From: Friedmanniella luteola
GTDB lineage: Bacteria; Actinomycetota; Actinomycetes; Propionibacteriales; Propionibacteriaceae
Length of the DNA stretch: 64,000 nucleotides
Reading direction: 5' to 3'
NCBI RefSeq assembly: GCF_900105065.1
Contig: NZ_LT629749.1
Span: forward strand, 3,906,001 to 3,970,000
The notes under the pieces were generated by a model, which searched no databases, was not told the DNA's origin, and saw only the letters and a program-made list of their open reading frames with translations. Of the stretch, positions 1,109 through 63,495 are shown piece after piece. The position numbers were made by a program, and so were the translations under genes. Numbering within the stretch: the first letter of the stretch is position 1; the number at the start of each line of letters is the position of its first letter.

Positions 1109-1136
1109 GGCGCCTCCCGGCAGTTCGGTCCGACGC

Positions 1137-2066: not shown

Positions 2067-2074
2067 TCAGGAGA

Positions 2075-3079: not shown

Positions 3080-3132
3080 GGGTGTTCCTTTCAGGGTGGG
3101 GCACGGCGGTGTGGACGGGCCCTGGGACCGGC

Positions 3133-3148
3133 CGGGGATCTCCCCGGA
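3133..3148 (-). promoter_or_regulatory. Short inverted repeat between permease and binding protein genes
   Basis: CCGGGGA and TCCCCGG form a perfect 7-bp inverted repeat with a 2-base centre in the 127-bp gap upstream of the lipoprotein gene. It could be an RNA processing or stability hairpin. Function is a guess. Confidence 0.35.
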
Positions 3149-3206
3149 CGGGTGGTGCGGACGGCGTGCGCCGGCGGGTCGGACGGGTGCTGGGCCGGTG
3201 ACCGGC

Positions 3207-6591: not shown

Positions 6592-6662
6592 CAGGTGCTC
6601 CTTCAAGCTGGCGGACGAGCAGCGGCGCGGCGTCCGGTGGCCCGGCGTGGCCGGACGCCGAG

Positions 6663-6692
6663 AACCTACCGGAGTCGTCGGAAGTATTGCAA
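6663..6692 (-). promoter_or_regulatory. Candidate promoter upstream of the DUF2291/transporter genes
   Basis: On the minus strand TTGCAA (6692-6687) and TAGGTT (6668-6663) are spaced by 18 bp in an AT-rich patch of the 196-bp gap between the isomerase and DUF2291 genes. Just upstream lies GAAAA-G-TTTTC (6701-6711), a possible regulator half-site pair. This suggests the transporter genes have their own promoter. Confidence 0.4.
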
Positions 6693-6787
6693 TCGGTTCT
6701 GAAAAGTTTTCGGTTCCTGGTGCAGAAGCGTGACCTGCAGATGCGCAGATGAGCACCGGGGGCCGAGTCGGCCGTCGAGAGGGCGCG

Positions 6788-36000: not shown

Positions 36001-36715
36001 CCGTGAGGTCGCGCAGCGGCAGGTTCGGGTTGGAGTAGGCGACGACCAGCGTCCAGCCGGCGTAGCGGTCGACCCCGGTCGCCGCGACCATGTCGGCGAA
36101 GAAGTAGGTGCCGTTGCCCCCGGTCCTCACGGTGGAGGTGACGTCCAGCGACGCCTGGTAGGGGGTGGTGTCGATGGTGGTCGTCGTGACGGTGGTGGCG
36201 TTGACGGTCGTGTAGCCGCTCTGCCCCGGGCCCCGGAACTTGGCGGTCCCGACGGCCCCGGTCCCGGCCGCGCCGCTGGTGCCCGCGGTCAGCCGGGCGC
36301 TCCACAGCAGGCGGGCGTACAGCACGGTGGAGTCGGCGGGCAGGGCGAGGTCGGCGCTGGTGGAGTTCGTGGTGGCCGCGACGTTGTCCACGTCGGAGAA
36401 GGCCATCGTGTAGTTGTTGTTGTTCGTGTTGGTGCCGGAGCCGCTCCGGGCGGCGGTGCAGCCGGTCGCCGCCGTCTGGCAGGTCAGCTGGGTGTTGCCC
36501 ACGATCGCGATGGCGCCGTTGTTCTGGGCGCTGAACACCTTGGCGAAGGGCTTCTGCACGGCCGCCTCGGCGGCCACGGGCGGCAGCACCGCGGTCCCCA
36601 GCACCAGCAGGGCCAGGACCAGGCTGAGCACCCAGGCCGTGGTCTGCCGCCAGGGCGCAGGAGCGCACCAGCGGGAGGGTCGGGACGACCTGCGCGACGG
36701 GTCGCGTGGGGGCAT
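21041..36715 (-). CDS. Giant sortase-anchored DUF11-repeat surface protein
   Basis: 5,224 aa in one uninterrupted frame. Order: an N-terminal secretion signal with a long basic n-region (hydrophobic AWVLSLVLALLVLGTAVLPPVAA, cleaved near residue 51), a head domain of about 330 residues (PFAKVFSAQNNGAIAIVGN, YAGWTLVVAYS), then 38 DUF11/TIGR01451-type repeats by my count (about residues 375-5150). A Pro/Gly/Gln wall-spanning segment follows, then LPRTG (residues 5192-5196), one membrane helix and RRRRG. The C-terminus is a canonical sortase signal, so the product is covalently attached to the wall. Most repeats carry a Cys pair about 8-10 residues apart and end in a [ST]xTxDPDxxDN-like acidic motif. 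Start is ATG 36715 with a modest GAGG site. Likely a fibrous adhesin or stalk; binding partner unknown. Confidence 0.9.
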   Translation of the reverse strand: MPPRDPSRRSSRPSRWCAPAPWRQTTAWVLSLVLALLVLGTAVLPPVAAEAAVQKPFAKVFSAQNNGAIAIVGNTQLTCQTAATGCTAARSGSGTNTNNNNYTMAFSDVDNVAATTNSTSADLALPADSTVLYARLLWSARLTAGTSGAAGTGAVGTAKFRGPGQSGYTTVNATTVTTTTIDTTPYQASLDVTSTVRTGGNGTYFFADMVAATGVDRYAGWTLVVAYSNPNLPLRDLTVFEGFADITTETAANSTVSTTVSGFITPTAGTVNATVGLGAWEGDLGTTGDVLKFGGTTLSDAARPANNSFDSAISNYGTSISARNPSATNNFGVDMGRISANGVLPNGATSATVSVSTTGDYIYLGLLTTEIDLYTPSFAGVSKTVTNLSGNAPAQVGDTLEYRLSFTNSGQDTAADVVARDTLPAGVSYVPGSTTVVSGANASTTPKTDATGDDVAEYVAADRLVRVRLGTGASATAGGTVAVNGSTAVTFRARVERPAAGTTVVNGALLDYRAVTLGNSYTFTTNTVSTPVQEIADLALTKTSTPTSQTAGSRVTYALGVTNNGPNTATGVVTTDTLPTGVSYLSSAPPSGTTCTSSGQTVTCSTATLANGAAVSIPVIVDVGAGTAAGTLVNTASVAASTTDDVATNNTATASTTVTRDADLRLTKTGPASVAAGNQVVYTLTALNAGPSSATSTTITDTLPLGTTLVSTDPSQGTCSASGQTVICTVGTLAPAATATVTLRATVAASSTATSLDNSASVTSATPDATPANNSATATTAVTQNADLAVTQTANPTTVPAGGTLTYTVTVANTGATDARGVTLADAVPAGLTLLQVTPTQGTCAAGSPLACDLGTITPGSTVRLTLSVRVDASRDAGTVTNTARATTTTAQAVTTNDAASTDITVVTRADVSLTKSAAPNPVQLGSNLTYTLTAANAGPSQARGVVVTDTLPTGTTFVSASTGCTASGRTVTCPMGTLDVGAGDSRTVTVTTPQTAPAGGLSNTAVATAATTDPAETNNTATFVSSTASSADLALTKTTSPSPVVPGRDVTYTLTASNAGPSAATGVVVDDTLPTGVTYASSTVPGGGSCTATGQAVACTVGTLAGGASATITLVGRVNADLVDRSTANTASVRATTPTDPTTSNNTATSTTEIARSADVGVTMVATTPTVRAGEEAGYRVTVNNAGPSTARNVVVTGQVPDGLEPVPGSSGGVCTVTGRTVSCAIGTLPVGSTANLTFRARVLPSTPAGTISGTASIGATTPDPNQADNASVAALEVVTAADVRATSSLSTDVLVAGGTATYTLTAANAGPSDATGVTLTDTVPAGLTVVSVAPSTGSCTVEGQIVRCGVDRLSPGGTLTVRVAVAVAADATGSRSSTVTVGSAVPDPAAGNNSDTTTTPVVQSADLRLTATAAPEPVTAGSTLRYTFGAVNVGPSLATAVVLDQVLPAGVRVLAGGIAAPPGVTCTVAAALDQVRCTLGDLAPGAGASVSVDTQVDPGLADGSSLTARGTLSSPTGDQDPDTRAARVTSSVVTSADLAVTKTARSSSPIAGGQETYVVTVSNAGPSRARAVRVVDSLPDGLTFVSAVNPAGTCSADGSDVTCDLGAVEPGAVVVVQLTTRLAATSAGRAVRNTVRVASDTADPTARNDTASLEQPVSGQNDLQLTKQVTSGPVVAGQPVTYRMVLSNDGPSQARDVILTDVLPDRLTFGRVDASGDGSCVYDPLTQTPADDDQVTCSWGTLDVGGSVTVTLTLGVPVDQPTGQPVVNTATASASATDPTPATATVSSAVGSRADLSVRKSLLSGPPTPGQEVRWQVSVQNDGPSVARDVRVRDAAPAGVAFTGAEAGQGSCPVAADAVECVLGDVAVGATVTVTVSGLLAAGSTVTDLTNEATVSSTTTDPDPDDNTTSVTTPATASADLALTSTAPASVVAGQQLTWTFRVTDEGPSDARDLRLTTALPDGVTVLSSTLDGPGSCSGTPSPTCTVDDLAAGASRTLTVVARVNPGYAGTALLASARVASAVADPDPLDGTTSSTTRVGRSADLSVSQTGPAVVAAGGTATWTVRVTNDGPSDGTGLVVVDDLPADLLGLTGTSDGGTCTLTGQQLLCPLGVVTAGGSRVITVTGQVDPATTAATLTNEVTVAADTPDPDTADLSSTFVTTIARSSDLTVTSTPGAETFTAGGPVSWTLTVRDGGPSVAREVVLTDTLPEGVTLATVDAGGGTCRLEGTSVLVCSFETQTPGTPIRVQVRGTLDAGATQAALVNSATVRAGTPDPDLTGNAASSSTPVGQSANLSIAQLIGSGRPVAGQPISSSLLVRNAGPSVARAVAVRSILPVDIEDPTVVSTSGTCTLTGRDLLCTVPELAPGAEARIDLGGVLAADFSGELSSVAAVESSTPDPDLADNTARVATTADEQAELSVVLTGPDRVVAGERVRFTVTVTNDGPSDARGVRLLGLLPAGVTDVRVESAYDPCTPDGQCPIGDLAADASRTIVVSGLVPADSSATSLNSTAVLTSDTADLDTTDNTSRVVTEVTRTADLVVTTASDVAQLTPGRGATLTVTVRNDGPSTARQVSATDTLPEGLALAGDPTSSAGACTTTGRTVTCELDQLEPGGALVLTLPVTVGASFTGATVADSASATSATPDPDAQDNTDAVTLPVRGRADLTLLSSAPDEVRAGTPLSWTLDLANDGPSDAQATVITQTLPAGVGRVSLASTQGSCTQSGVTVTCTLGVVAAGQAVRVTVGTSGVLDPSYPAGPVVARATVSSPTADPDGDVADDPTPDGRSASSETRVVAEADVTVTTVATPTSTVAGGPVGWTVTVSSTGPSTARDVVLTNPLPDDVRGFTLVPADGVTCSGTTCTIGDLRPGTDQALVFTVRGTVPAAFAGDAVVDTARVSTSTPDPDPGDDRASAPVAVQQAGGVALVLDGPDTVVPGEDVSWTVTVTNLGPSLARGVVVTDALPTGVTGARVSAPAGVRCTDGPTLSCDLGSLDVGDQNAVTLVVTGRVAADLADPELATTARVTATTPDPDSGDNAATAVSLVRPEADLALVKTGPAAATAGEAVAWELEVSNDGPSQARDVVVLDTLPAGVGGIAAGSPEGGVSCTVEGAGIRCAVGALDPDDAVTVQVTGVVDAGQPAGTLENVATVSSAATDVQPADNRDATRTEVTSSADLSVTKTVSPDPLEAGSPATFVLTVANAGPSRARAAVVTDVLPAGLTAGAVTSTSGTCAVRGQTVACDLGDLAATGGTPVVVTIPVVVADDVDPDGFANTASVQSDTTDPDAGDNSAVVAGEAASRADLRLTKTADRTVAVPGELVTWTLAVTNDGPSAARAVSLVDTLPASVAVTAASVPGGSCAPLDVRPLVCTLDVVRADQTVAASITGRVDADTLDAALTNAASVGSTGSVDPDAADNSDQVRTPLQGAADLVVEQSATPTPAVAGAPVTWTVTVRNTGPSQARGVVLTDTVPVGVDVTSATLDRSGDCRTLDGSVTCDVGTLATGSSAVLTLVGRPTAGSAGGDLVNRAVATAVTQERTPNDNDSRLSTPLGRSADLSVALDAPTRVLAGEQLTWRVTVRNDGPSDAAGATTRLALPPGLLGLTAVVDGTGCPVTADGTLCALGALPAGEQRVLVVTGQLDPASLATALPATATAAATTADPDTADLTATGSTTVGRAADLALTKRVEGAVVAGRAVTWSLVLTNPGPSTARDVVLTDALPAGVRPATATSGDADCAVADGTLRCTRDQLAPGGTVQVRVTGTLDPAYPDTGLRNTASATTSTPDPVPGGSSATSDAEVGASADLRVGKALTSGLPVAGEPITFTVVVTNDGPSDATGVVLTDVVPSQVRAVTAGSDAGTCTVVGPGVRCDLGTLADGAEAVVTVGGVVTQTFDERLTNTARVTSATPDPDPGNDAGSADASVGESAAVSVALTGPATATAGGPLRWTLVVRNAGPSTARDVDLAQLLPAGVRDVAVDDARCRPDVSCLLGDLAPGATVTVVVTGTLDPAFAGGELDTAATVTSPTADPSSVDDTATWTTAVGRASDLVTTLDLRPGTLVPGTGATLVVGVRNAGPSTADRVVLSTTLPEGLTLAADATGDGATCTLVGRTLRCTVPALAPGADVAVTVPLAVAPGVSVDTLDLSAVASSLTPMVVAGDNTATRAAPVAGQADLTLSKTGPATASAGTPLAWRLVLTNDGPSDAQGVVLTDALPAGVGPVTVTASQGVCAQQDDQVRCDVGQLADDGRVTVDLVTTGPVDPSTVTGVLTNRAAVTSATGEPGGGSGGRRDAASTDLGAIADVAVDVRADAAAVTAGTRTSWTVTVANRGPATARGVRLALPAGAGLTDVRVSGPAGLTCTDVCTLATLLPGDEAAVVLTVSARVPAGSTADSVTTRATVSAATDDPENGDDTDAAAVPVVRSAALAVSKTGDRVVTPGGDVAWSVVVENAGPSVARDVRLTDALPDGVSDVEVAGAGCTGTDTVSCALATLDPDESVELTLTGRLASGFEADALTNTAEVTSSTSDPDAADNSDTARGDTAASADLSVTKTGPETLVAGGPVVWRLTVANDGPSTARGVVLSDPVPAGVGRLRTSGADCAVVDRVVRCDLDAVADGDEVTVTVSGVVDPAYTGAALVNAASVRSDTADPEPANGTSDPVSTTVTRSADLSIVKTVDDVVAGEDAVFTLTVRNAGPSTARGVVVTDVLPAGLGIGEVSGAACAVEGQTVTCRIAELGPTGDEPVVVTIPVAVADDVDPATLVNTATVQGSDPDPQLDDNTSVVAGGGVAVADLAVTKVADREAAAPGERVSWTVTARNAGPSAARDVTIRDVLPDDLTDLAVEGPAGACAAVVDRVLTCTLDVLRDGELAAVVVRGTVASGSELSALTNSVTIASSASRDPETDDNAAQVTTPLTGEADVALTKVLDTVSPGAGEEARWTLTATNRGPSTARGVVLTDTLPAVPVVAELPTGCTAVDRTVSCGLGDLEVGASGSVELVGTVESGATGTLSNSATVTATSPDLDLADNTATTPPAPLRHLADLGVAKVADATEASVGDEVGYVVTVTNRGPSDASGVMVDERWPDGLALVGAEPGTGRFDPATMTWAVGTLAAGASAELRLAARVSGTGVVTNAVAVSGGDGTVDPEPDDGVADATLTVDPPADPGDPDQPGQPGQPGQPAQDGPPGPGIPLLPRTGGPVLWVLVLGWLAVVGGVSALAVRRRRG
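21240..35600 (-). repeat. Array of 38 diverged DUF11 coding repeats, about 375 bp each
   Basis: Each unit starts with a (S/A)ADL-type strand, then xxxxTVTVxNxGPSxARxVVxTDxLPxGV, a C...C pair, an LxxGxxxxVTV strand and a [ST]xTxDPDxxDN end. N-terminal units are Thr/Asn-rich, later ones Asp/Val-rich. Units are diverged at the DNA level, so this is an old array rather than a recent expansion. Confidence 0.9.
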
Positions 36716-53090: not shown

Positions 53091-53846
53091 CTAGAGCGTG
53101 GTCATCCCGCCGTCGACGCGGAAGATCGCCCCGGTCGCGTAGCCGGACTCGTCGCTGGCGAGGTAGACCATGATCCCCTCGACGTCGGCCGCGGTGCCCG
53201 GCCGGCCGAGCGGGATGCGGGAGATGATCGCCGCCCGGTCCTCCGCGTTCCCGCTGATCGCGGAGACGAGCGGCGTCTCCGTGTAGCCCGGCACCACGGT
53301 GTTCACCCGGATGCCGCGGCCGGCGTAGGCCTTGGCGACGGCGCGGGCCATCCCGTGCATGCCGGCCTTGGAGCTGGAGTAGGCCGTGAAGTCCTGGCCC
53401 TCACCGTTCAGGCCGGTGGGCGAGCCGGTGAGGACGATGGACCCACCCGAGCCGGCGAGCAGCGCCCGGACCGCGTGCTTGAGGGTCAAGAAGGTGCCGG
53501 TGAGGTTGACCGCGATGGTCTGCTGCCACACCTCGAGGTCGAGGTCGGCGACCTGGGCGTCCCGCCCGAACAGCTGGACGCCGGCGTTGGCCACCACGAC
53601 GTCCGGCGTGAACCCGGCCTCGGCGGCGGCGGCGAAGCCGGCCACCACGCTCGCCTCGTCGGCCACGTCGAGCGCCACGGCGAGCGCGCCCTCCCGGCCC
53701 TCGGTGACGCCCCGCGCTGCGACGACGTCCCGGTCCGTCACCACCACCCGGGCCCCCTCGGCGAGGAAGCGCTCCGCCACGCCCCGGCCGATGCCGGAGC
53801 CGGCCCCCGTGACCAGGGCCGTCTTGCCCTCGAGCCGTCCGCTCAT
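53091..53846 (-). CDS. SDR oxidoreductase of the apionate locus, candidate sugar 1-dehydrogenase
   Basis: 251 aa classical SDR: TGAGSGIGRGVAERF for NAD(P), ANAGVQLFG, the catalytic Ser in LTGSPTG, and YSSSKAGMHGMARAVA for Tyr-Lys. It is the third gene of the oiaC-apnO-SDR operon, 25 bp after apnO. SDRs in similar loci oxidise aldopentoses at C1 to lactones, so it may make D-apionolactone from D-apiose, replacing the Gfo/Idh-type ApsD known elsewhere. It could instead act on another intermediate. The family is certain; the reaction is a hypothesis. Confidence 0.8.
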   Translation of the reverse strand: MSGRLEGKTALVTGAGSGIGRGVAERFLAEGARVVVTDRDVVAARGVTEGREGALAVALDVADEASVVAGFAAAAEAGFTPDVVVANAGVQLFGRDAQVADLDLEVWQQTIAVNLTGTFLTLKHAVRALLAGSGGSIVLTGSPTGLNGEGQDFTAYSSSKAGMHGMARAVAKAYAGRGIRVNTVVPGYTETPLVSAISGNAEDRAAIISRIPLGRPGTAADVEGIMVYLASDESGYATGAIFRVDGGMTTL

Positions 53847-53871
53847 CGCCGCTCCCGCCCCGTCCCCGGCC

Positions 53872-54756
53872 TCAGCGCTCGATCGCGTCGAGGTGGAGCA
53901 TCTGCTTGAGCACGTGGTCCAGCTCGTCGTCGGCGAAGATCGACTTCCAGTCCTCCTTGACGATCTTGTCGCGGCCGTAGTCCATCGCGATCAGGCAGGC
54001 GTCGGAGAAGGGGTTGTCCCCCCGCAGGCCGTTGGCCAGCGCGACCTGCACGTGGCCCATCAACATCGCGCGGGCCGCGGGCTCGGGGACGCCCACGGTG
54101 TGGATCGTCTCCTGGAGGGCCTCGTTGAGCAGGGCGCCGACCATGCAGGCGACGACCTCGACCAGCGTCGGCTCGAGGTAGGCCAGCTGCTTGACGGTCA
54201 CCCAGTGCACCGAGAGCACCGGGGCGTACATGAGCGTGATGACCTCCTCGGCCACCGCCCGCTTGGCGAGGTCGTCGGACTCGAAGGCCGCGACCACCTC
54301 CTGCGGGGCGGCGATCCCGCCGAAGGTGTCCGCGAGCTCCGCCTCGGTCTTGCGCTGCAGGAAGACCGACGGGTGGCAGGGGTGCGCGACGGCGTACTCG
54401 ACGTCGGCCCGGCGGAACAGCAGGTTGGCGTAGGCGGCGGCCGGGTCCAGCGTCAGCACGACGGCCCCGGTCTTGAGCTGGGGCACCACCTCGGCGGAGA
54501 CGGGCGCCAGGGCGACGTCGGGCACCGCGAGGATGACCACGTCGGCGTCCGCGACGGCCACCGCGGTGTCGGTCACGGTGCGGCCGGCGTCGGTCGTCCG
54601 CTGCCGGCCGGCCGGCGAGTTCTCGCTGTAGTGGACGGTGTGCTCGCTGCGCTGCAGGTTGTTGGAGACCCGCATGCCCATCTTCCCGCCGGCTCCGACG
54701 ACCGCGATGGTCAAGGGGGCGGTGGTCCGGGGCTGGGTGGTGACGTCGGTGCTCAC
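53872..54756 (-). CDS. apnO: D-apionate oxidoisomerase-like dehydrogenase
   Basis: 294 aa. The N-terminal Rossmann domain has IAVVGAGGKMGMRVSNNLQ and DADVVILAVPD. The C-terminal helical domain (about 165-290, VLSVHWVTVKQLAYLEPTLVEVV, LMGHVQVALANGLRGDNPFSDACLIAMDYG) is of the phosphogluconate-dehydrogenase C-terminal type found in ApnO proteins. ApnO converts D-apionate to 3-oxo-isoapionate with NAD by oxidation and hydroxymethyl migration. The AVAHPCHPSVF stretch fits that family as I recall it. The GTG start overlaps the upstream isomerase-like gene by 4 bp (GTGA). Assignment is supported by the divergent ApnL-like gene. Confidence 0.75.
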   Translation of the reverse strand: MSTDVTTQPRTTAPLTIAVVGAGGKMGMRVSNNLQRSEHTVHYSENSPAGRQRTTDAGRTVTDTAVAVADADVVILAVPDVALAPVSAEVVPQLKTGAVVLTLDPAAAYANLLFRRADVEYAVAHPCHPSVFLQRKTEAELADTFGGIAAPQEVVAAFESDDLAKRAVAEEVITLMYAPVLSVHWVTVKQLAYLEPTLVEVVACMVGALLNEALQETIHTVGVPEPAARAMLMGHVQVALANGLRGDNPFSDACLIAMDYGRDKIVKEDWKSIFADDELDHVLKQMLHLDAIER

Positions 54757-55553
54757 GACTGCGTGCTCCTCAGGTAGGAAAGGTTGTGCTCGGTCCAGCG
54801 CTGCTCGAGCGCGATGGTGGTGGCGCTGTCGCCCTGCCAGGGCAGCCAGTGCTCGACGATGCGGCTGATGCCGCGGGCGTCGGGGTCGACGAGGGCGACC
54901 ATCTCGGCGTAGGGCAGGAGGCCCTCGCCGAGCGGGCAGCCCACGAGGCTGAACCCCACCCAGCCGTCCTGGCGGGTGAAGTGGAAGTCCTTGACGTGCA
55001 GGTTCTTGACGTGGGCCGCGGTCCGCCGCACGGTGTCCATCGGCAGCTCCAGGGCGGCGACGCAGTTGGCCGGGTCGAGGCAGATGCCCAGCGCCGGGGA
55101 GCCGACCACCTCCACGACGTCGACGAGGGTCGCGACCGGCACCTGCTCGTAGGTCTCCAGGGCCAGGGTCACGCCGCCGGCCGCGTAGGCGGGCACCGCC
55201 GCGGTGAGCAGCCGGACGGCCTCGTCGCGGGTGGGCCGGTGGTCACCGGCGTTGAGCATGCTGCGGACCAGGGAGACGCCGAGCCGCTCCGCGAGGTGGA
55301 GGTACCGGGTGAGGTGCAGCCCGCCGATCCCCCGGGTGCCGAGCTCGAGCGCGACACCTAGGCCCTCGGCCGTCACCCGCACGGCGTCCAGCCGGGCGGC
55401 GTCCCACCGCTCGAGCTCGGGGTAGTCGCAGATCTGGAAGCGGTCGACGCCCGCGTCCGCGGTCCGCTCCAGCATCGCCTCGAGGCTCAGGGGGCTCGCG
55501 GCGGACGGGTGCCACTGCCAGAAGTAGGCGTAGGTGCCGAGGCCGGTGCTCAC
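54753..55553 (-). CDS. oiaC: Sugar-phosphate-isomerase-fold enzyme, probable 3-oxo-isoapionate decarboxylase
   Basis: 266 aa AP-endonuclease-2/xylose-isomerase-like TIM barrel. Metal ligands are likely the Glu of LALETYEQVP, the Asp of GICLDPANCVAALELP, the His of NLHVKDFHFTRQDGWVGF and the Glu of IVEHWLPWQGD. The motifs TYAYFWQWHP and CPLGEGLLPY agree with what I recall of OiaC, which decarboxylates 3-oxo-isoapionate to L-erythrulose. It is the first gene of the minus-strand unit, directly after the divergent operator, and is translationally coupled to apnO. A generic isomerase/epimerase on a related sugar is the alternative. Confidence 0.68.
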   Translation of the reverse strand: MSTGLGTYAYFWQWHPSAASPLSLEAMLERTADAGVDRFQICDYPELERWDAARLDAVRVTAEGLGVALELGTRGIGGLHLTRYLHLAERLGVSLVRSMLNAGDHRPTRDEAVRLLTAAVPAYAAGGVTLALETYEQVPVATLVDVVEVVGSPALGICLDPANCVAALELPMDTVRRTAAHVKNLHVKDFHFTRQDGWVGFSLVGCPLGEGLLPYAEMVALVDPDARGISRIVEHWLPWQGDSATTIALEQRWTEHNLSYLRSTQS

Positions 55554-55585
55554 GGGTCCCGAGCCTGCCGCTCCGGCGTCGACCT

Positions 55586-55621
55586 GTCAACCGGTTGACC
55601 AATTTTGGTCAACCGGTTGCC
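55586..55621. promoter_or_regulatory. Double palindromic operator between oiaC and the FadR-type regulator
   Basis: GTCAACCGGTTGAC (55586-55599) is a perfect palindrome. A near-identical copy GTCAACCGGTTGCC is at 55608-55621. Together CAACCGGTTGACCAA (55588-55602) and TTGGTCAACCGGTTG (55605-55619) make a perfect 15-bp inverted repeat. This is the likely binding site for the adjacent FadR-type regulator, acting on both units. Confidence 0.85.
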
Positions 55622-55627
55622 CGGTCG

Positions 55628-55657
55628 TTGCTGGGAGCGCGGCGTGGACCCTAGGCT
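55628..55657 (+). promoter_or_regulatory. Candidate promoter of the regulator-apnL unit
   Basis: TTGCTG (55628-55633) and TAGGCT (55652-55657) with an 18-bp spacer. Transcription would begin near 55664, the GTG start itself, so the mRNA may be leaderless. It directly abuts the operator. Confidence 0.5.
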
Positions 55658-55663
55658 GCGCGT

Positions 55664-56404
55664 GTGCCCCTCCCCCCGCCCACCGACCCGGCCGCAGCGA
55701 GCCTCGGCGGGAGCATCGCCAGCACCTCGGTGGTGACGGAGGTGACGCGCCGGCTGCTCGACCACTTCACGTCCGGCACCGTGGCGCCGGGCTCGCGGCT
55801 CCCTCCGGAACGGCGGCTGGCCGAGACGTTCGCCGTGGGCCGGTCCGCGGTGCGCGAGGCGCTGGCCGCGCTCGAGGTGCTCGGCGTGGTCGAGGTGCGC
55901 CCCGGCTCCGGCACGTACCTGCGCAGCAGCACCTCGGAGCTGCTCCCGCAGACGCTGTCCTGGGGGATGTTGCTGGGCGAGCCGAAGACGCGCGAGCTGG
56001 TCCAGGTCCGGCACGGCCTCGAGGTCCAGGCAGCCCGGCTGGCCGCCACGGCGGCCGACGAGGCGGGCCTGACCGCCCTGGCGGGCCACCTCGCGGCCAT
56101 GCGCGCGGCCGCGTCCGACTTCGAGGCGTTCGCCGCCGCCGACCTGCGGTTCCACCAGGAGCTCGCCGAGCAGACGGGCAACGTGCTGCTGGACCAGATG
56201 CTGCAGAGCGTCCGGTCGCTGATCCGGGTGTGGGTCGAACGGGCGGTCAGCGATGCCGAGCACGTCGCGGTCACCTGCACCGAGCACGCCGACGTCCTCA
56301 CCGCGCTCGAGGGGCGCGACCCCGTGGCGGCCGCCGCGGCCATGAGCGCGCACATGGACAGCGCCGGGGCCCGCCTGCTGGCGACGGTGGAGGCGGGCGC
56401 GTGA
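55664..56404 (+). CDS. GntR-family (FadR/FCD) transcriptional regulator of the apionate locus
   Basis: 246 aa. The winged helix-turn-helix (about 35-90) reads LPPERRLAETFAVGRSAVREALAALEVLGVVEVRPGSGTYL. The C-terminal FCD domain (about 100-235) has the three-helix metal/ligand-binding pattern including FEAFAAADLRFHQELAEQTGN and a distal AAAAAMSAHMDSA. The GTG start lies at the predicted transcription start. Its stop overlaps the ApnL-like GTG by 4 bp (GTGA). Likely a repressor relieved by a sugar acid of the pathway; the ligand is inference. Confidence 0.88.
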   Translation: MPLPPPTDPAAASLGGSIASTSVVTEVTRRLLDHFTSGTVAPGSRLPPERRLAETFAVGRSAVREALAALEVLGVVEVRPGSGTYLRSSTSELLPQTLSWGMLLGEPKTRELVQVRHGLEVQAARLAATAADEAGLTALAGHLAAMRAAASDFEAFAAADLRFHQELAEQTGNVLLDQMLQSVRSLIRVWVERAVSDAEHVAVTCTEHADVLTALEGRDPVAAAAAMSAHMDSAGARLLATVEAGA

Positions 56405-58191
56405 GCACCGTCGACGTCGTCGCGGCGCGGAGCGGTGGACCGGTGGCCGACCTGCGGCACGGGCGCTGGACGCTGCAGGTCCGCGGCGACGAGGTCGCCG
56501 ACGTCCGGTTCGACGGGGTGCTCCTGCTGCGCGCGGTGCGGCCCGTGGTCCGTGACGCCGACTGGAACACGGTCCCGGTGCGGGTGCTGGCGTCGACCGT
56601 GAGCCCTTCGACAGGCTCAGGGGACGGGGGCGGCTCGGGGGACGGGGGCGGCCCAGGGGACGGGGGCCGGGGCGTGGCGCTGCGGCGGTCGCTCGGCTTC
56701 GAGGCCGAGGGCGTCGAGTACGCCGGAGAGCTGACGGTCACCCTGGAGGACGGCAGCCTGGTGGTCGGCTTCGTGGGCGAGGCCCGGTCGGCCTTCCGGC
56801 GGAACCGGGTGGGGCTCGTGGTGCTGCACCCGGCGGCGTGCGCCGGCTCCGCCGTGCAGGTCCGGCACGGCGACGGACGGGTCGAGGACGCGCGCTGGCC
56901 GGTGCCCATCCGCCCCCACCAGCCCTTCGTCGACGTGGCCGGCTTCGCCTGGACGGCCGGCGGCGTCACCGCCCGGCTGGGGTTCGCGGGCGACGTCTTC
57001 GAGACCGAGGACCAGCGCAACTGGACCGACGCGTCGTTCAAGACCTACTCCACGCCGCTGACGCGGCCGTTCCCCGTGGCGCTGGCGGTGGGTGACCGCG
57101 TCGAGCAGACGGTGCGGCTGGACGCCTCGGGCCACTCCTCCACCCCACCCGCCCGCGACACCGACGTCGTCCGGGTGGGCGGCACCGCGGTCGGCACCGT
57201 GCCGCCGCTGAGCCTCGGCGCGGCCCTGCACCCGGCGCCGGCCGCACCGCTGGTGGTCGAGGGCGTCGAGGCGGTGCTGGTCGAGCTGACCGGCCCCGAG
57301 GAGGGGTGGTCCGCCCTGCTGGCGGAGGCCGGCCGACAGGCCTCGGCCCTCGGCGCAGGTCTCGACGTGCGGGTCGTGACGGCCGACCCGGAGGCGGCGC
57401 GACGCGCCGTCCGCGGCCTCGCCGGGCACCCGGTGCTGAGGCTGGCGGCCTTCGACGTCGAGGGGCACGTGAGCACGCCCCCGCTGTGGGCCGCGCTGCA
57501 GGACGAGGCCCGCCGGCAGGCGCTGGCCGCCGTGCTCCTCGGCGGCACCCGTGCGCACTTCACCGAGCTGAACCGGCGGCAGGCCGACCTGCCCGCCGAC
57601 GCCTCGGCCCTCACCTTCAGCCTGACCCCGCAGATGCACGCCAGCGAGGTGCCGCACGTCGTCGACAGCCTGGCCACCCAGCGCACCGTCGTCGAGAACG
57701 CCGTGCGGATCGCGGGCGGGCGTCCGCTGCACGTCGGCCCCGTCACCCTGACCCGCCGGTTCAACGCGGTCGCCACCGGCCCCCGCCCCGACCCCGCCAC
57801 CGAGGCCGCCCGCGCCGTCGACCCGCTGCTGGACACCGGGTTGGCGGCCGCCTGGACGTTGGCCAGCGTCGCCGCCCTGGCCGTGCCCGGGGTCGCCGGA
57901 CTCACCTACCTCGAGACCGCTGGACCGCGCGGGCTGCTGGACGGGGGCGGCCGGCCGCGACCCGTCGCCGCCGTCCTGACCCGGGTGGCCGGGCTGCGCG
58001 GCCGGACCCTGCGGGCGACGTCGCTTCCGGACGGGCTGGCGGCCCTCGCCGTCGACGACGGGGGCGGCACCCTCGTCCTGCTGGCCAACCTCACGCCCGA
58101 GCGCCGGTCCGTGGCCCTCGCGGCGGCCGCCGGCGCCACCGCCGAGGCCGCGCTGGGCGCCTGGGGCACCGCCGAGGTCCGGCTGGGCTGA
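56401..58191 (+). CDS. apnL: D-apionate lactonase-like protein
   Basis: 596 aa, the size expected for ApnL. Segments I recall from that family are present: DADWNTVPVRVL near residue 55, EARSAFRRNRVGLVVLHP near 125, IRPHQPFVDV near 170, and FEGDVFETEDQRNWTDASFKTY-like sequence near 200 (here DVFETEDQRNWTDASFKTY). The C-terminal half (about 280-595) is a TIM-barrel-like glycosidase-type region with SLTPQMHASEVPHVVDSL. ApnL hydrolyses D-apionolactone to D-apionate. A Gly/Asp/Ser/Pro insertion at about residues 68-92 is encoded by a dispersed DNA repeat and is not part of the fold. It is translationally coupled to the regulator gene. Confidence 0.75.
   Translation: MSTVDVVAARSGGPVADLRHGRWTLQVRGDEVADVRFDGVLLLRAVRPVVRDADWNTVPVRVLASTVSPSTGSGDGGGSGDGGGPGDGGRGVALRRSLGFEAEGVEYAGELTVTLEDGSLVVGFVGEARSAFRRNRVGLVVLHPAACAGSAVQVRHGDGRVEDARWPVPIRPHQPFVDVAGFAWTAGGVTARLGFAGDVFETEDQRNWTDASFKTYSTPLTRPFPVALAVGDRVEQTVRLDASGHSSTPPARDTDVVRVGGTAVGTVPPLSLGAALHPAPAAPLVVEGVEAVLVELTGPEEGWSALLAEAGRQASALGAGLDVRVVTADPEAARRAVRGLAGHPVLRLAAFDVEGHVSTPPLWAALQDEARRQALAAVLLGGTRAHFTELNRRQADLPADASALTFSLTPQMHASEVPHVVDSLATQRTVVENAVRIAGGRPLHVGPVTLTRRFNAVATGPRPDPATEAARAVDPLLDTGLAAAWTLASVAALAVPGVAGLTYLETAGPRGLLDGGGRPRPVAAVLTRVAGLRGRTLRATSLPDGLAALAVDDGGGTLVLLANLTPERRSVALAAAAGATAEAALGAWGTAEVRLG
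56601..56676. repeat. Dispersed CCCTTCGACAGGCTCAGGG element plus GGGGACGGGGGCGG tandem copies inside apnL
   Basis: CCCTTCGACAGGCTCAGGG (56604-56622) matches the core of the hairpin at 11852-11886 on the other strand. Three imperfect GGGGACGGGGGCGG-type units follow. The frame stays open, encoding SPSTGSGDGGGSGDGGGPGDGG-like linker. Confidence 0.85.
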
Positions 58192-58200: not shown

Positions 58201-60141
58201 TCAGGCGCTCGGCACCCAGACGCGCATGGCCCCCTCGGCACGGTTGCCCCAGGTGAAGTAGGGCACGGCGGTGAGGGCCGCGGGCTCCGCGGCCGGGGCC
58301 GCCACCGCCGCCGCGCTGCCGTAGGGCCACCAGGCCGCGGCGGGCCGGCCGCGCACGGCGCCGGTCGCCCGGACCACCACGACGGGTCCGAGCTCGCCGT
58401 CCTCGGCGGCGCTGACCAGGGGCTGGTCGGCGGCCAGGACGAGGTCGTCCAGGCGGTGCCCGTCGTGGTCGACGCCCTCGAGGCAGTAGACGAGCGGCCC
58501 CCGCTCGAGCGCGACGCACCCGCGGTCGACGTCGAGGCGTGGGTCGGCGGCGGTCAGCCGCGGCTCCAGCGGCAGGGTGAGCAGCACCTCGTCGCCGGCC
58601 GCCCAGGACCGCTCGACGCGCCACCAGCCGTCGAGGGCGCCGCCCCCGACCGCCGTGCCGTTGACCGTCAGGCCGGCGCCCTCCGCCCAGCCGGGCACCC
58701 GGAGGGCGAGGGTCCAGGGGGCGTCCGGCCCGTCCTCCACCCGGATCCGGACCGCGCCGTCCCAGGGGTAGTCCGTGGTGACGGCCAGCCGCGCCTCCCC
58801 GCCCGCGACCTCGGCGGAGTAGGTGCCGGTCATGAACTGGTGCAGGGCCAGGGAGCCCTCGTCGGACAGCAGCACGTAGTGCTCCAGCGAGGCGAGCAGC
58901 CGCATGACGTTCGGCGGGCAGCAGGCGCAGCGGAACCAGGGCACCCGGACGTAGTCGCCGTCGTCGCCGCTGGCGACGTGGCCGTCGCGGACCTGCAGCG
59001 GGTTGGCGTAGATGTAGCGCTTGCCGTCCAGCGACAGCCCGGCCAGGAAGCCGTTGTACAGCGTCCGCTCCAGCAGGTCGGCGTACTTGGCCTCGCCGGT
59101 GATCATCAGCATCCGCCAGCTCAGGTGGATCGAGGCGATGGCAGCGCAGGTCTCGCAGTAGCTGCGCTCGTTCGGCAGCTCGTACGGGTCGCCGAAGGCC
59201 TCGTCGCGGTGGTGGGACCCGATGCCGCCGGTCAGGTAGGTCTTGGTGGCGACCATCTCCGACCACACGCGCTCGACGGCGGCGAGCAGCGTGGCGTCCC
59301 CGGTCTCGACGTAGACGTCAGCCACCCCGGCCAGCAGGTAGAGCTGCCGCACCGAGTGCCCCTCGGCCGTCAGGGTGTCCCGCACCGGGGTGTGGTCCTG
59401 CCAGTAGTGCCGCCCGAACCGGCCGTCGCCCAGCAGGCCGTGCCCACGACGGTCGACGAAGTAGACGGCCAGGTCGAGGTAGGAGCGCTCGCCGGTCTCC
59501 CGGTACAGCTCGACCAGCGCCGTCTCGATCTCCGGGTGCCCGCAGACGCCGTCGACCTGGCCCGGACCGGTGCCGAAGGCGCGGACGGCGAGGTCAGCGA
59601 CGCGACGGCCGATGGCCAGCAGGCCGTCCTCGCCGGTGCTGCGGTGCAGGGCGACGGCGGCCTGGATGAGGTGGCCGGCGCAGTACAGCTCGTGCCCCCA
59701 GGGCAGCTGGACGAACCGCTCGCCGGGGAAGCGCACCTGGAAGTGGGAGTTGAGGTAGCCGTCCTCCTGCTGCACGGCGCCCAGCAGCTCGGTGCTCTCG
59801 GCGAGCCGGCGGAGCAGCTGGTCTGCCGGTCCCGACCCGAGGTCGGGGTCGTCGAGGGTCCAGGCCACCGCCTCCAGCCACTTGTAGAGGTCCGAGTCGA
59901 GGAAGGGGAGGTCGTTGACGTAGTCCCCGGTGACCCGGGCCGCGGCCAGCTCGAGGTTGTGGAAGTTGCCGGCCTCGTGCAGCCGGTCCCAGCCCTCCGG
60001 GACGCAGACGTCGCGGTTGACCGCGCGGCGGCCCGCCCAGAACCCCCCGGTGATCAGCGCCCCGGTGGCGGGGCGCAGGCGCACGGCGCTGGCGTCGGTC
60101 AGGCGGATCGGGCCCGCACTGCGGCGGCCGGTCTCGATCAT
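58201..60141 (-). CDS. GH127-family glycoside hydrolase (beta-L-arabinofuranosidase type)
   Basis: 646 aa, the family's usual length, no signal peptide, so intracellular. An (alpha/alpha)6 barrel N-terminal part (LYKWLEAVAWTLD, QQEDGYLNSHFQ) precedes the active site. NERSYCETCAAIASIHLSWRM contains the Glu and Cys zinc ligands, and RCACCPPNVMRLLAS holds the Cys pair, one of them the nucleophile. The C-terminal part is beta-sandwich (GPLVYCLEGVDHDG). GAGAGGA precedes the ATG at 60141. It is co-directional with the CUT1 importer genes 65 bp upstream, so it likely cleaves imported oligosaccharides. Known GH127 substrates are beta-L-arabinofuranosides; next to apionate genes, beta-apiofuranosides are a possible alternative. 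Confidence 0.87.
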   Translation of the reverse strand: MIETGRRSAGPIRLTDASAVRLRPATGALITGGFWAGRRAVNRDVCVPEGWDRLHEAGNFHNLELAAARVTGDYVNDLPFLDSDLYKWLEAVAWTLDDPDLGSGPADQLLRRLAESTELLGAVQQEDGYLNSHFQVRFPGERFVQLPWGHELYCAGHLIQAAVALHRSTGEDGLLAIGRRVADLAVRAFGTGPGQVDGVCGHPEIETALVELYRETGERSYLDLAVYFVDRRGHGLLGDGRFGRHYWQDHTPVRDTLTAEGHSVRQLYLLAGVADVYVETGDATLLAAVERVWSEMVATKTYLTGGIGSHHRDEAFGDPYELPNERSYCETCAAIASIHLSWRMLMITGEAKYADLLERTLYNGFLAGLSLDGKRYIYANPLQVRDGHVASGDDGDYVRVPWFRCACCPPNVMRLLASLEHYVLLSDEGSLALHQFMTGTYSAEVAGGEARLAVTTDYPWDGAVRIRVEDGPDAPWTLALRVPGWAEGAGLTVNGTAVGGGALDGWWRVERSWAAGDEVLLTLPLEPRLTAADPRLDVDRGCVALERGPLVYCLEGVDHDGHRLDDLVLAADQPLVSAAEDGELGPVVVVRATGAVRGRPAAAWWPYGSAAAVAAPAAEPAALTAVPYFTWGNRAEGAMRVWVPSA

Positions 60142-60206
60142 GGAGGTCCTCTCGGGAGTGCGGTGGGTGGTGCGGGTGGCACCGTCGGTGCCGGTCGGGC
60201 TGCTGG

Positions 60207-61064
60207 TCACTTGAGGGCGCCGCTGAGCATGCCGCTCACGTAGTAGCGCTGCAGGAGCACGTAGACCACGATGCACGGGATGATCGTCAGGGCGACACCG
60301 GCCTGCAGCGAGCCCCAGTTGACCGTGCCGAACTGGCCGCTGGAGACGAGCGTCAGGGTCACGGGCAGGGTGAACTTGTCCTGCTCGGTGATCAGGATCA
60401 GGGCGGCGAAGAACTCGTTCCAGCTGGCGAAGAAGGTCAGCAGCGCCGTGGTGATCACCCCCGGCATGACGACCGGCAGCAGCACGCTCCGGAGGGCGCC
60501 GAGGATCCCGCAGCCGTCGACCAGCGCCGCCTCCTCGAGGCTGGCGGGCAGGGCGGCGAACGAGTTGCGCATGATGAACAGCCCGAACGGCAGGTTGAAC
60601 GTGATGTAGACGATCGTCAGCCCCAGCAGGGAGTTGTTGAGGTGCAGCGTCTGCATCACCTTGAACAGCGGCGTGATCACCGCCTGGAACGGGATCATGA
60701 AGGTGGCCAGGGCGAGGAAGAACAGCACGCCGCTGCCGGGGAAGCGGGCGCGGGCGAAGGCGTACCCCGCGAGGGTGCTGAGCACGATGGTGCCGGCCGT
60801 CGCCCCGAGGGTCACGGCGACGCTGTTGAGCACGTTGCCGAACACGTTGAGCCCCTGCACGCTGCCGAGCCGCCGGAAGTTGGCCAGGCTCAGGTCGTGC
60901 GGGAACAGGGTCGGCGGGATCAGCCCGGCCTCGGTCGGGCCCTTGAAGGCCATCGAGAGCATCACGAACAGCGGGTACAGGAACATCACCGTCAGGGCCA
61001 GGCAGATCACCCACCAGACCAGCCGGGGCACCGTGGAACGGACGTCCCCGATCATCGTGCGCAT
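60207..61064 (-). CDS. CUT1 sugar ABC transporter permease (MalG type)
   Basis: 285 aa with six membrane segments, the first near residues 14-36. The coupling-helix motif EEAALVDGCGILGALRSVLLPVVMPG (EAA loop) lies at about residues 190-215. It pairs with the MalF-type permease encoded 28 bp upstream. No ATPase gene is in the cluster, so it probably shares a multitask MsiK-like ATPase encoded elsewhere, as is common in actinobacteria. Confidence 0.92.
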   Translation of the reverse strand: MRTMIGDVRSTVPRLVWWVICLALTVMFLYPLFVMLSMAFKGPTEAGLIPPTLFPHDLSLANFRRLGSVQGLNVFGNVLNSVAVTLGATAGTIVLSTLAGYAFARARFPGSGVLFFLALATFMIPFQAVITPLFKVMQTLHLNNSLLGLTIVYITFNLPFGLFIMRNSFAALPASLEEAALVDGCGILGALRSVLLPVVMPGVITTALLTFFASWNEFFAALILITEQDKFTLPVTLTLVSSGQFGTVNWGSLQAGVALTIIPCIVVYVLLQRYYVSGMLSGALK

Positions 61065-61092
61065 GGCGTCTCCTCGCGTCGTCGAGCGGTGC

Positions 61093-62046
61093 TCAGTTGT
61101 GGTCGGTGTTGCGCAGCAGGAGCATCTGCACCGCGCTGACCGCGGCGAGGATGACCATCAGCAGCACCGAGAGGGCGGCGCCGTAGCCCAGCCGGAAGCT
61201 GGTGAAGCTGATCCGGTAGATCTGGTAGACGGCGGTGATGGTGGAGTTCGACGGCCCGCCGCCGGTCATGATGAAGAACTGGTCGAAGGCCAGCAGGGAG
61301 CCGGCGACCGAGAACACCAGCACCAGGGCGAGCGTCGGCCGCAGCAGCGGCAGGGTGATCGAGCGGAACAGCTGCCAGCCGCCGGCGCCGTCGATCCGGG
61401 CGGCCTCGACCACGTCGTCCGGGATCGACTGCAGGCCCGAGAGCAGCAGGAGCATCTGCAGACCGACGACCTTCCAGGTGACCATCGCGATGACGAGGGC
61501 CAGCGCGGTCCCGCCCCCGGCGAAGAGGTTGTCCTCGCTGTCCACCACCCCGGCACGGCGCAGCAGGTCGAACAGCGGGCCGATCTGGGACTGGCCGAGG
61601 TAGAGCCAGAGGAACGAGCCCGAGGCCAGACCGATGCAGACCGGCATGAAGAAGACGGACTGGAAGAACCGCGCCCCGCGGACGGGCCGGCGGACCAGCA
61701 GGGCCAGGAACAGCCCCAGCACCAGCAGCAGCGGCGTGATCACCACGGTGTAGAGCAGCGTGAACCTCAGCGCACGCAGGAAGTTGTCGTCGCCGAGGGC
61801 GCGCGTGTAGTTGTCGAGCCCGACGAACCGGGCACGGCCCAGCAGCGGCCAGTTGTGCAGGGACATCCAGAAGGTCAGCACCAGCGGGACGAGGAAGAAC
61901 ACCGTCACCAGCACCAGCGCCGGGGCGGCCATGGCCAGGCCCAGCAGGGACCGGCGTCGAGCCGTGCTGCCGCGCCGGCGGCCCGAGCGGGGCGGCGTCG
62001 GCGCGTCGGCGGACCGCAGGGCACGGCCGGGAGCCAGGGAGGTCAT
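61093..62046 (-). CDS. CUT1 sugar ABC transporter permease (MalF type)
   Basis: 317 aa. A basic N-terminal tail (RSGRRRGSTARRRS) precedes six membrane segments beginning near residue 35. The EAA loop reads VVEAARIDGAGGWQLFRSITLPLLRP at about residues 200-225. Co-transcribed with the binding protein upstream (111 bp) and MalG-type permease downstream. Confidence 0.92.
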   Translation of the reverse strand: MTSLAPGRALRSADAPTPPRSGRRRGSTARRRSLLGLAMAAPALVLVTVFFLVPLVLTFWMSLHNWPLLGRARFVGLDNYTRALGDDNFLRALRFTLLYTVVITPLLLVLGLFLALLVRRPVRGARFFQSVFFMPVCIGLASGSFLWLYLGQSQIGPLFDLLRRAGVVDSEDNLFAGGGTALALVIAMVTWKVVGLQMLLLLSGLQSIPDDVVEAARIDGAGGWQLFRSITLPLLRPTLALVLVFSVAGSLLAFDQFFIMTGGGPSNSTITAVYQIYRISFTSFRLGYGAALSVLLMVILAAVSAVQMLLLRNTDHN

Positions 62047-62157
62047 CGCGTTCTCCAGTCGACGGGTCGGATCGGGGGCACCCCCCGTCCGACCGGCGGT
62101 GGCCGGCCGGACGGGGGCGGTGCGGACCAGGAGCGGGGGCTGACGAGGGGAGGTGCG

Positions 62158-63453
62158 TCAGCCCGCGTCGTCGATCAGCGCCTGCGCCGCCTGCTGGCCC
62201 GCGGCCTGGGCGCCGGCGATGTCGCCGCCGAACGTGGCGTCGTTGATCATCTTGATCCAGGGCCCGTTGTTGTCGTTGAAGATCGGGTTCTCGACGACGC
62301 TGTAGGGCGTCTTGCCGATGCCCATCAGGTCACCGAACACCTTGTAGGGCTCGCCCTGGGGCGCGTAGATGGTGCCGACGAGGTCGGTCCGGACGGGCAC
62401 GCTGCCGTTGTGGGCGAGGAAGTCCTGGGCCTCGGAGTCCGTCGCCCACCTCACGAAGTCCTGGGCACCCGCCTGGTTCTTGGTCCCGGTCATGACCGAG
62501 ATCACGTCGCCACCGGCGAAGGATCCCGTGCCGCCGTCCTGGCCGGGCAGCGGGGTGACCCCGAAGTTGATCTTGGCCTGCTCGATCGTCGGGATCGCGA
62601 AGGCGCCGAGCGGCGTCATGCCCAGCTTGCCGCTGGTGAACAGCGGGACCTGCTGGGTCCCGGCGTCGTTCTTGGCCGCGCTCGGGATCGAGCCGTCGGT
62701 CCACATGTCCCGGTAGAGCTGCAGGGCCGCCGTCATCTGCGGTGAGTCCAGCGAGGCCGTCTTCCCGTCGGCGGACAGGACGTCCCCGCCGCTGGCCCAG
62801 ACGTGCGGGGTGAGCTCGAAGACGTTGCAGCCGCCGCACGCGCCGGCGAACGTGAAGCCGTAGTAGTCCTTGCCGAGGGCGCGGATCTTCTGCGCCGCCT
62901 CGCGGATCTCCGCGTAGGTGGTCGGCGGCTTCTCCGGGTCGAGGCCGGCCTTCTCGAAGAGGTCCTTGTTGTAGTAGAGCGCCGACGCCTCCGCGGTGAA
63001 GGGCAGGGCGTAGGTGGCGCCCTCCCAGGTGGAGAGCGCACGGTGGGAGGGGCTCAGCGCGTCCTTGTAGGGCAGCGCGTCGGACAGCTCCGTGATGTCC
63101 TCCAGCGCGCCGGCCGAGGCGAAGTAGGGCGCGTAGACGAGGTCGATGGAGGCCACGTCCGGCCCGCTGCCCGAGGAGGCCGCCGTCCCCAGCTTCTGCA
63201 CGAAGCTGGCAGCCGGGATGACGGTGACCTTCGCCTGCACCGCGTGGTTCTTGTTGTACAGGTCGACCAGCTTGCTCATGAACACCTGCTGCGAGTCGCG
63301 GGCCCAGACGGTGATGGTGCCCGTCGGGGCCGCGTCGCTCCCGCCCTCACCACCGGTGTCGCCACCGCCACCTCCGCCGCTGCACGCGGCGGCCATCATC
63401 GCCACGGCGCTCAGCAGTGCACCGATCTTCCACCTGGGGTCTCGCATCGTCAT
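62158..63453 (-). CDS. CUT1 sugar ABC transporter substrate-binding lipoprotein
   Basis: 431 aa from the ATG at 63453, which has GAGGGAG 4 bp upstream; a start nine codons further out is less likely. The lipobox MAAAC lies near residue 25, then a Gly/Asp linker. The mature protein is SBP_bac_1: GTITVWARDSQQVFMSKLVDLYNK, PDVASIDLVYAPYFAS, YALPFTAEASALYYNKDLFEKAGLDPEKPPTTYAE and FAGGDVISVMTGTKNQAGAQDFVRW. It heads the importer-GH127 unit and should bind an oligosaccharide. Conserved Cys pair at GACGGCN. The ligand is unknown. Confidence 0.92.
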   Translation of the reverse strand: MTMRDPRWKIGALLSAVAMMAAACSGGGGGGDTGGEGGSDAAPTGTITVWARDSQQVFMSKLVDLYNKNHAVQAKVTVIPAASFVQKLGTAASSGSGPDVASIDLVYAPYFASAGALEDITELSDALPYKDALSPSHRALSTWEGATYALPFTAEASALYYNKDLFEKAGLDPEKPPTTYAEIREAAQKIRALGKDYYGFTFAGACGGCNVFELTPHVWASGGDVLSADGKTASLDSPQMTAALQLYRDMWTDGSIPSAAKNDAGTQQVPLFTSGKLGMTPLGAFAIPTIEQAKINFGVTPLPGQDGGTGSFAGGDVISVMTGTKNQAGAQDFVRWATDSEAQDFLAHNGSVPVRTDLVGTIYAPQGEPYKVFGDLMGIGKTPYSVVENPIFNDNNGPWIKMINDATFGGDIAGAQAAGQQAAQALIDDAG

Positions 63454-63495
63454 CCGGCTCCCTCGCCCTCGACGCGCCACGGGGCGCGGAACGTG

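Follow-up and report, generated by a model that had tools for sequence, protein, structure and literature searches.

A predicted D-apiose regulon in Friedmanniella luteola with a short-chain dehydrogenase as candidate first enzyme

Which enzyme would start the breakdown of the branched sugar D-apiose in an actinobacterium, and by what route would its product reach central metabolism? The question is raised by a compact divergent locus of Friedmanniella luteola, contained in a 64,000-nucleotide stretch of contig NZ_LT629749.1 (the whole of which is hereafter called the window), where predicted genes for a short-chain dehydrogenase/reductase (SDR, P0001), an ApnO-like oxidoisomerase (P0002) and an OiaC-like decarboxylase (P0003) face those for a FadR/NanR-type regulator (P0004) and an ApnL-like lactonase (P0005) across a palindrome (Table 1). 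A sequence-only reading had earlier described these five genes and the palindromic operator, all of which, coordinates included, we verified in the sequence. We consider it quite probable that the locus is a single regulon for D-apiose breakdown, and P0001 is most likely a D-apiose dehydrogenase of a kind unrelated to the Gfo/Idh/MocA enzyme. The basis of the pathway consists of the genes themselves, conserved neighbourhoods, co-occurrence and a conserved operator. The pathway is known in kind; the unusual first enzyme and the broad actinobacterial distribution are what is new. We also favour, with somewhat less confidence, a wider proposal: that the SDR clade constitutes a second kind of D-apiose 1-dehydrogenase, unrelated to the Gfo/Idh/MocA enzyme and replacing it across many Actinobacteria, in a complete route, starting from apiosides in some species, that leads to D-erythrose-4-phosphate with phosphorylation only after L-erythrulose and under a conserved FadR-type operator.

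In the proposed scheme, the SDR would oxidise D-apiose at C1 with NAD+ to D-apionolactone and ApnL would open the lactone to D-apionate, which ApnO would oxidise and rearrange to 3-oxo-isoapionate and OiaC would decarboxylate to L-erythrulose. A kinase and a triose-phosphate-isomerase-like (TIM-like) isomerase encoded at window positions 1-7633, together with RpiB encoded outside the window, could take L-erythrulose on to D-erythrose-4-phosphate; kinase, isomerase and RpiB are what a route through L-erythrulose needs. The FadR-type regulator would bind the central palindrome and control both arms. Each arm looks like a single transcript, since the OiaC-like and ApnO-like reading frames share 4 bases and those of the regulator and the ApnL-like gene likewise share 4.

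P0002 carries Rossmann-type matches (residues 16-102) followed by a PGDH_C domain (Pfam PF16896, 7.9e-58, residues 134-287), which bears out the fused architecture that the sequence-only reading had ascribed to ApnO. It matches PDB entry 5t57, which we take to be ApnO, at 1.7e-55 over residues 16-284, and a match to 3c24 likewise covers most of the protein. P0003 belongs to the xylose-isomerase-like TIM barrels (PF01261, 1.7e-16); its NCBIfam match, to a ribulose-5-phosphate epimerase subfamily, is weak and below cut-off. The four metal ligands proposed earlier are retained as putative ligands: E133, D160, H186 and E234, whose role we assume from xylose-isomerase-like barrels, are identical in 61/61 sequences including P0003. 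Invariant residues hold across 63 ApnO and 61 OiaC sequences. The closest plasmid relatives of both proteins come from Erwinia, where the ApnO relative (62%) adjoins the OiaC relative (54%), and across the loci compared OiaC is linked both to ApnO and to an L-erythrulose route.

P0005 has a single NCBIfam match, NF049900 (D-apionate lactonase; E 8e-60, in three stretches), and no Pfam family matched it. Because its 203 bits lie far below the curated cut-off of 750, we file the protein as ApnL-like, an assignment carried by context and not by score; the Salipiger ApnL, from an oiaX/OiaK locus, likewise falls below the cut-off (632.8 bits). The order of lactonase, oxidoisomerase and decarboxylase and the L-erythrulose product that had been proposed earlier are upheld as predictions from homology and context.

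P0001 is a classical SDR (PF13561, 2.3e-56) whose best NCBIfam model, "glucose 1-dehydrogenase", stays below cut-off. Its S142-Y156-K160 triad and Asp38 reach at least 95% conservation over 45 aligned rows, as in an SDR sugar 1-dehydrogenase. An Asp at the end of β2 in SDRs goes with NAD use, and the conserved triad and Asp38 would fit an NAD-using dehydrogenase. P0001 does not belong to Gfo/Idh/MocA, the family that we take ApsD to represent, and no gene of that family is linked to ApnL here: the best relative in this genome of the Salipiger Gfo gene (31%, 79 bits) is located away from the apn locus.

To place the SDR in its genomic context, we surveyed 198 genomes of the family Propionibacteriaceae. 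OiaC and ApnO occur in the identical 17 genomes and adjoin one another except in G046, where they are far apart, and in G155, where they lie ~3 kb apart and ApnO is of another type (35%). ApnL occurs in nine of the 198 genomes and the SDR (E up to 1e-60) in seven, always with ApnL. Within the 17 genomes, the SDR is found in 7/8 with ApnL and 0/9 without it (Fisher p 4e-4, uncorrected for kinship). The 18 neighbourhoods of this survey divide similarly: seven have ApnL and SDR (the window, L024, L026, L028, L030, G024 and L056), and seven have neither (L049-L055), with an MFS importer and a TIM-like gene in all and a kinase in six. L029 has ApnL and a kinase without the SDR; L027 has ApnL and a regulator, with neither OiaC nor ApnO in the stretch; and L057 and L058 have OiaC and ApnO, with little else found and OiaC in pieces in L058.

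A wider survey, in which the ApnL alignment was searched against 84,980 species genomes, matched at least 592 stretches, 392 of which encode a relative; the best 80 of these 392 loci were kept. At thresholds of our own setting (for the SDR, a minimum of 50% identity and of 150 bits; for the Gfo-type dehydrogenase, a minimum of 100 bits), 38 loci have the SDR, 12 the Gfo-type enzyme, none both and 30 neither (phylogeny confounds the Fisher p of 2e-4). Judged by spacing, ApnL has the SDR as its immediate neighbour on one side or the other in 37 of the 38, the exception being L097, where the SDR starts 2.3 kb away. ApnO and OiaC are each present in 29 of the SDR loci and a kinase in 26; ApnO, OiaC, kinase, TIM and RpiB all occur in 23, and in nine the fetched stretch contains no ApnO and no OiaC. 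The 12 Gfo loci contain ApnO (10), an OiaC-type match (8) and OiaK (3), and the kinase in none. Near the SDR threshold stand L141 (49%, 204 bits), which falls within the SDR clade, L074 (56%, 63 bits), and L126 and L131 (38%).

We combined the 80 loci with the 18 neighbourhoods, window included, into a set of 98 from which the SDR tree and the counts of conserved residues, operator half-sites and apiosidase homologues were drawn. In the tree, the SDRs group in a single clade of 46 rows (support 100/99), from which 14 further SDRs of these loci are separate, with long-branch warnings for L056 and L141. Because the surveyed loci had been found through ApnL, we also ran SDR-led searches. A class search found the SDR in 5/394 genomes, which with the seven of the family make 10 distinct genomes, and ApnL is nearby in 10/10; in G344 it is not in the 3.75-kb locus, and a wider fetch placed it 2.4 kb away from the SDR. 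It is the SDR, to which the sequence-only reading had given no role, that tracks ApnL. Its place in the pathway would accordingly be with ApnL and ahead of ApnO and OiaC, as suits a sugar 1-dehydrogenase making the lactone. Among the open-access papers listed in literature searches, none mentions an SDR-type apiose dehydrogenase in its title or in the opening of its abstract; Carter et al. 2018 lies outside that search and might mention one.

As a separate observation, an SMP-30/gluconolactonase-like gene adjoins ApnL in two loci where the SDR is missing (L085:8834-9745, Pfam SGL 3.4e-45; L093:9063-9962, by eye).

The sequence of the SDR does not reveal its substrate, and among its best relatives in NCBIfam and PDB, dehydrogenases are mixed with reductases. 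The enzyme could instead act after OiaC, converting L-erythrulose to a tetritol, with the substrate entering the pathway as apionolactone or apionate. The gene order of the window would suit such an arrangement, in that the SDR shares an arm with ApnO and OiaC and not with ApnL, as would seven OiaC-ApnO genomes with the kinase alongside and no SDR (G035, G040, G223, G182, G068, G009 and G004). We nevertheless judge it improbable: the whole kinase route stands beside the SDR in the 23 loci mentioned above, the nine loci with neither ApnO nor OiaC still pair SDR with ApnL, the SDR is missing from all nine OiaC- and ApnO-containing genomes that lack ApnL, and the conserved Asp at the end of β2 suggests NAD use and with it oxidation. 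The reading of the SDR as an apiose dehydrogenase is the one we retain.

A gap of 34 bases separates the predicted operator from the OiaC start, and one of 44 bases separates it from the regulator start. Its core, TTGACCAATTTTGGTCAA, has no second copy in the window at up to 3 mismatches (0 expected), and the only exact copies of AACCGGTTGACCAA in the 4.7-Mb genome are the two palindrome arms, with one more site at one mismatch. The half-site GGTTGACC or its complement occurs within ~310 bases around the regulator start in 37/48 loci, window counted, at a density of 3.4 per kb there versus 0.10 per kb across all loci; no exact half-site is present in the other 11. Permuted 8-mers occur on average in 0.6 of the 48 loci, with a maximum of 37 that presumably belongs to a word overlapping the same motif. 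The regulator is of GntR type (Pfam PF07729 FCD, 3.2e-26; PF00392, 2.8e-18), and its best NCBIfam model, below cut-off, is NanR; a regulator annotated NanR adjoins the Salipiger ApnL.

A hint at the nature of the substrate comes from neighbouring glycosidase-like genes. G024 has two consecutive genes of the apiosidase-like family PF13204, which also includes members of other activity, immediately ahead of ApnL (E 3e-65 and 5e-61). In G155 one such gene is separated from ApnL by ApnO, and in Arthrobacter L064 one immediately precedes the ApnL-SDR pair (E 2e-18). By tblastn (E up to 1e-6), 21 of the 98 loci contain homologues of these four proteins, 14 of them with the SDR and three with Gfo. 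This is a raw count, uncorrected for a base rate in such stretches; Pfam was applied to the four query proteins, and some matches are weak, partial or several kb from ApnL. The presence of apiosidase-family homologues near apn loci supports apiose as the substrate. The same chemistry might nonetheless serve another branched or C5 sugar acid, for example another 3-C-branched aldonate, given that annotated relatives outside the group share just 30-62% identity with these enzymes and that ApnL scores so far below its cut-off. We think this unlikely, and slightly more so than a placement of the SDR after OiaC, as apiosidase-like genes lie beside SDR-carrying ApnL relatives (G024, with ApnL 56-59% identical to P0005, and L064) and the OiaC and ApnO invariants hold throughout the 61 and 63 sequences. 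The loci suggest a nested series, in which apionate users (MFS, OiaC, ApnO and kinase) are extended to apiose users by SDR and ApnL, and these to apioside users by apiosidase-like glycosidases.

The Arthrobacter gene (L064:5829-7583) has DUF5060 and DUF5605 domains, lies between an ABC importer and the ApnL-SDR pair, and is a candidate apioside-releasing glycosidase.

The two ApnL segments pointed out in the sequence-only reading, VFETEDQRNWTDASFKTY and RNRVGLVVLHP, are both present in P0005. We aligned 39 chosen ApnL-like rows (P0005, six family relatives and 32 of the 80 surveyed loci), in all of which many polar residues of these segments (N135, R136, E201, E203, D204, R206, N207, W208, D210, S212, K214 and Y216) are invariant. 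All 39 contain a EDQRNWTDASFKTY-type block and an NR block, a signature taken from our own reading of the alignment and not a published one; the strictly invariant polar residues are those of the EDQRNWTDASFKTY block plus N135, R136, N391, R392 and H413. An AlphaFold model of P0005 computed from this alignment (mean pLDDT 92.7) comprises, by our reading of its secondary structure, an N-terminal β-sandwich, a (β/α)8-like barrel and a C-terminal β domain. The 50 matches listed in a PDB fold search are all glycosidases (GH36, GH97, GH30 and kin), so the predicted lactonase looks built on a glycosidase-like frame; a sequence search of PDB gave three weak matches (best E 0.018), which we judged to be chance. 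That P0005 is itself a glycosidase of GH36/GH97/GH30-like architecture, as these matches and two acidic residues might indicate (E389 after a barrel strand and E505 at a strand end, kept in 36/39 and 38/39 rows), is very unlikely, since D-apionate lactonase is the family name given by the curated equivalog model, E389 is replaced by N or Q in three rows and E505 by Q in one, and TM-scores are low (~0.25 to full-length glycosidases, 0.4-0.6 to GH30).

Within the ApnL-like gene, and in frame, lies a copy of a dispersed repeat starting GAGCCCTTCGACAGGCTCAGGG (window 56603-56670). Of 39 genome matches, 20 begin exactly at this copy and seven others overlap it. The copy encodes a Gly/Ser-rich loop of ApnL (residues 77-87, pLDDT <50) that is longer in the relative G018.

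Besides the low ApnL score, several observations weigh against the D-apiose regulon and its SDR-first route. When the proteins were compared with characterised families, a check that the sequence-only reading had proposed, only the ApnL model matched, below cut-off, and no NCBIfam model for ApnO or OiaC did; the OiaC and SDR assignments draw on domain models and gene context. OiaC-type barrels are a wider group than apn loci: a Roseibium relative (37%) has transporters as neighbours, and its stretch contains no annotated ApnO. G035 has ApnL, ApnO, OiaC and the kinase and lacks the SDR. The 30 of the 80 ApnL loci with neither dehydrogenase at our thresholds include the actinobacterial L063 (short), L071, L074 (partial SDR match), L076, L084, L085, L093, L096, L130 and L134. 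The SDR/Gfo split mostly follows phylogeny, Gfo occurring in just three actinobacterial loci (L114, L115 and L122), and L118 has sub-threshold fragments of both (SDR 46%, 69 bits; Gfo 46%, 99 bits). There is no transporter within the apn regulon, a genome-wide search of operator words did not find the apn operator at the erythrulose operon, and a DeoR-type regulator gene neighbours the erythrulose genes. The genome of F. luteola yields no PF13204 apiosidase-family match, and the plant-polysaccharide use claimed earlier finds no footing in such a gene. Some bacteria, moreover, synthesise UDP-apiose themselves (PMC5607165), and on this ground too apiose use should not be read as use of plant polysaccharides.

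The route beyond L-erythrulose is represented at the left edge of the window. The sequence-only reading had described a pathway without kinase, which is incomplete as an account of the genome: homologues of L-erythrulose kinase and isomerase are present, partly within the window. A search of the genome for relatives of the Erwinia kinase found the window kinase and no other, and an RpiB gene lies next to this kinase gene just outside the window (G000:C1:3904875-3905348). The importer beside them has a binding protein 49% identical to its Salipiger-locus counterpart, and a role for it in apiose uptake is a guess. The importer/kinase set lies partly beside apn genes in L062, L068, L098, L107 and L129, and window 1-8763 may be a tetritol operon shared for the apiose route. 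Erythritol and threitol catabolism in Mycolicibacterium smegmatis presumably runs through an L-erythrulose kinase and a D-erythrulose-4-phosphate isomerase; the left edge resembles such a system in its kinase, TIM-like isomerase, RpiB, ABC importer and Zn-dehydrogenase, but differs from the apn locus in having its own DeoR-type gene and no apn operator, ~44 kb from the apn genes.

An oxidative D-apiose pathway of ApsD, ApnL and ApnO, followed by OiaC, or by OiaK with OiaX/OiaT, is said to have been described by Carter and colleagues (Nat Chem Biol 14:696). The window resembles it in having ApnL-, ApnO- and OiaC-type enzymes in order and a FadR/NanR-type regulator, but has an SDR where that pathway has a Gfo/Idh/MocA apiose dehydrogenase (ApsD) and an ApnL far below the curated cut-off. 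Neither OiaK nor OiaX is among the five apn genes of the window, the remaining genome not having been searched for either. EC numbers for the lactonase, dehydrogenase, oxidoisomerase, kinase and phosphate decarboxylase of the apiose pathway are given in an excerpt of PMC11747546. Plasmid pTPRO1 of Salipiger profundus (L022) shares with the window ApnL, a NanR-type regulator and ApnO, as well as an ABC importer with DUF2291 like that of the left edge; it differs in its own Gfo/Idh/MocA dehydrogenase, OiaK-type kinase and gene annotated oiaX, that is, in using a kinase route, and neither an OiaC nor an SDR gene is annotated in its 21-kb stretch. Erwinia sp. E602 and Pantoea At-9b, which supply the closest plasmid OiaC and ApnO, have these adjacent in an operon of the order MFS transporter-kinase-TIM-OiaC-ApnO with rpiB nearby, the same kinase/isomerase/RpiB set as in the window genome; unlike the window, they have no ApnL or SDR annotated alongside, and they use a sugar-binding-type regulator and an MFS importer.

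Actinobacteria are common in soil and on plants, and the locus offers a testable identity for the first step of their apiose catabolism. It also offers function names for plasmid genes labelled "phosphogluconate dehydrogenase C-terminal domain-containing protein" and "TIM barrel protein".

Table 1 Features of the apn locus and of the left edge of the window, with predicted functions
Feature	Window position	Strand	Remarks
SDR (P0001)	53091-53846	-	251 aa; predicted NAD-dependent D-apiose 1-dehydrogenase (D-apiose to D-apionolactone)
ApnO-like D-apionate oxidoisomerase (P0002)	53872-54756	-	294 aa; PF16896, PDB 5t57, Erwinia relative
OiaC-like 3-oxo-isoapionate decarboxylase, TIM barrel (P0003)	54753-55553	-	266 aa; PF01261
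Palindromic operator CAACCGGTTGACCAATTTTGGTCAACCGGTTG	55588-55619		32 bp; near-perfect palindrome, predicted
FadR/NanR-type GntR regulator (P0004)	55664-56404	+	246 aa; PF07729, PF00392
ApnL-like D-apionolactonase (P0005)	56401-58191	+	596 aa; NF049900, sub-cut-off
Dihydroxyacetone-kinase-family gene, predicted L-erythrulose kinase	1-1108 (cut by window edge)	-	53% to kinase of Erwinia OiaC-ApnO operon; NF011049, 705 bits vs cut-off 492
Ribose-type ABC importer (binding protein, permease, ATPase)	2075-5935	-	49% and 44% to Salipiger importer beside ApnL
DUF2291 open reading frame beside ABC importer	5932-6930		DUF2291, 1.9e-23
TIM-like gene, predicted L-erythrulose-1-phosphate isomerase	6788-7633	-	34.6% over 257 aa to Erwinia TIM
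Zn-dehydrogenase	7630-8763		left-edge operon

Convergent to ApnL, a GH127-family glycosidase and a MalFG-type ABC importer are encoded at window 58201-63480. We considered these genes as an apioside arm and set them aside: the nearest relative, G018, retains them, yet it retains unrelated flanking genes as well, and their conservation may reflect nothing more than synteny. A lead remains in L074 and L090, where GH127 homologues (36% and 34%) occur close to the apn loci. Elsewhere in the window, on the minus strand at 21041-36715, a reading frame of 5224 aa with many repeated domains and, towards its end, an LPxTG-like motif (LPRTG) probably encodes a giant surface protein.

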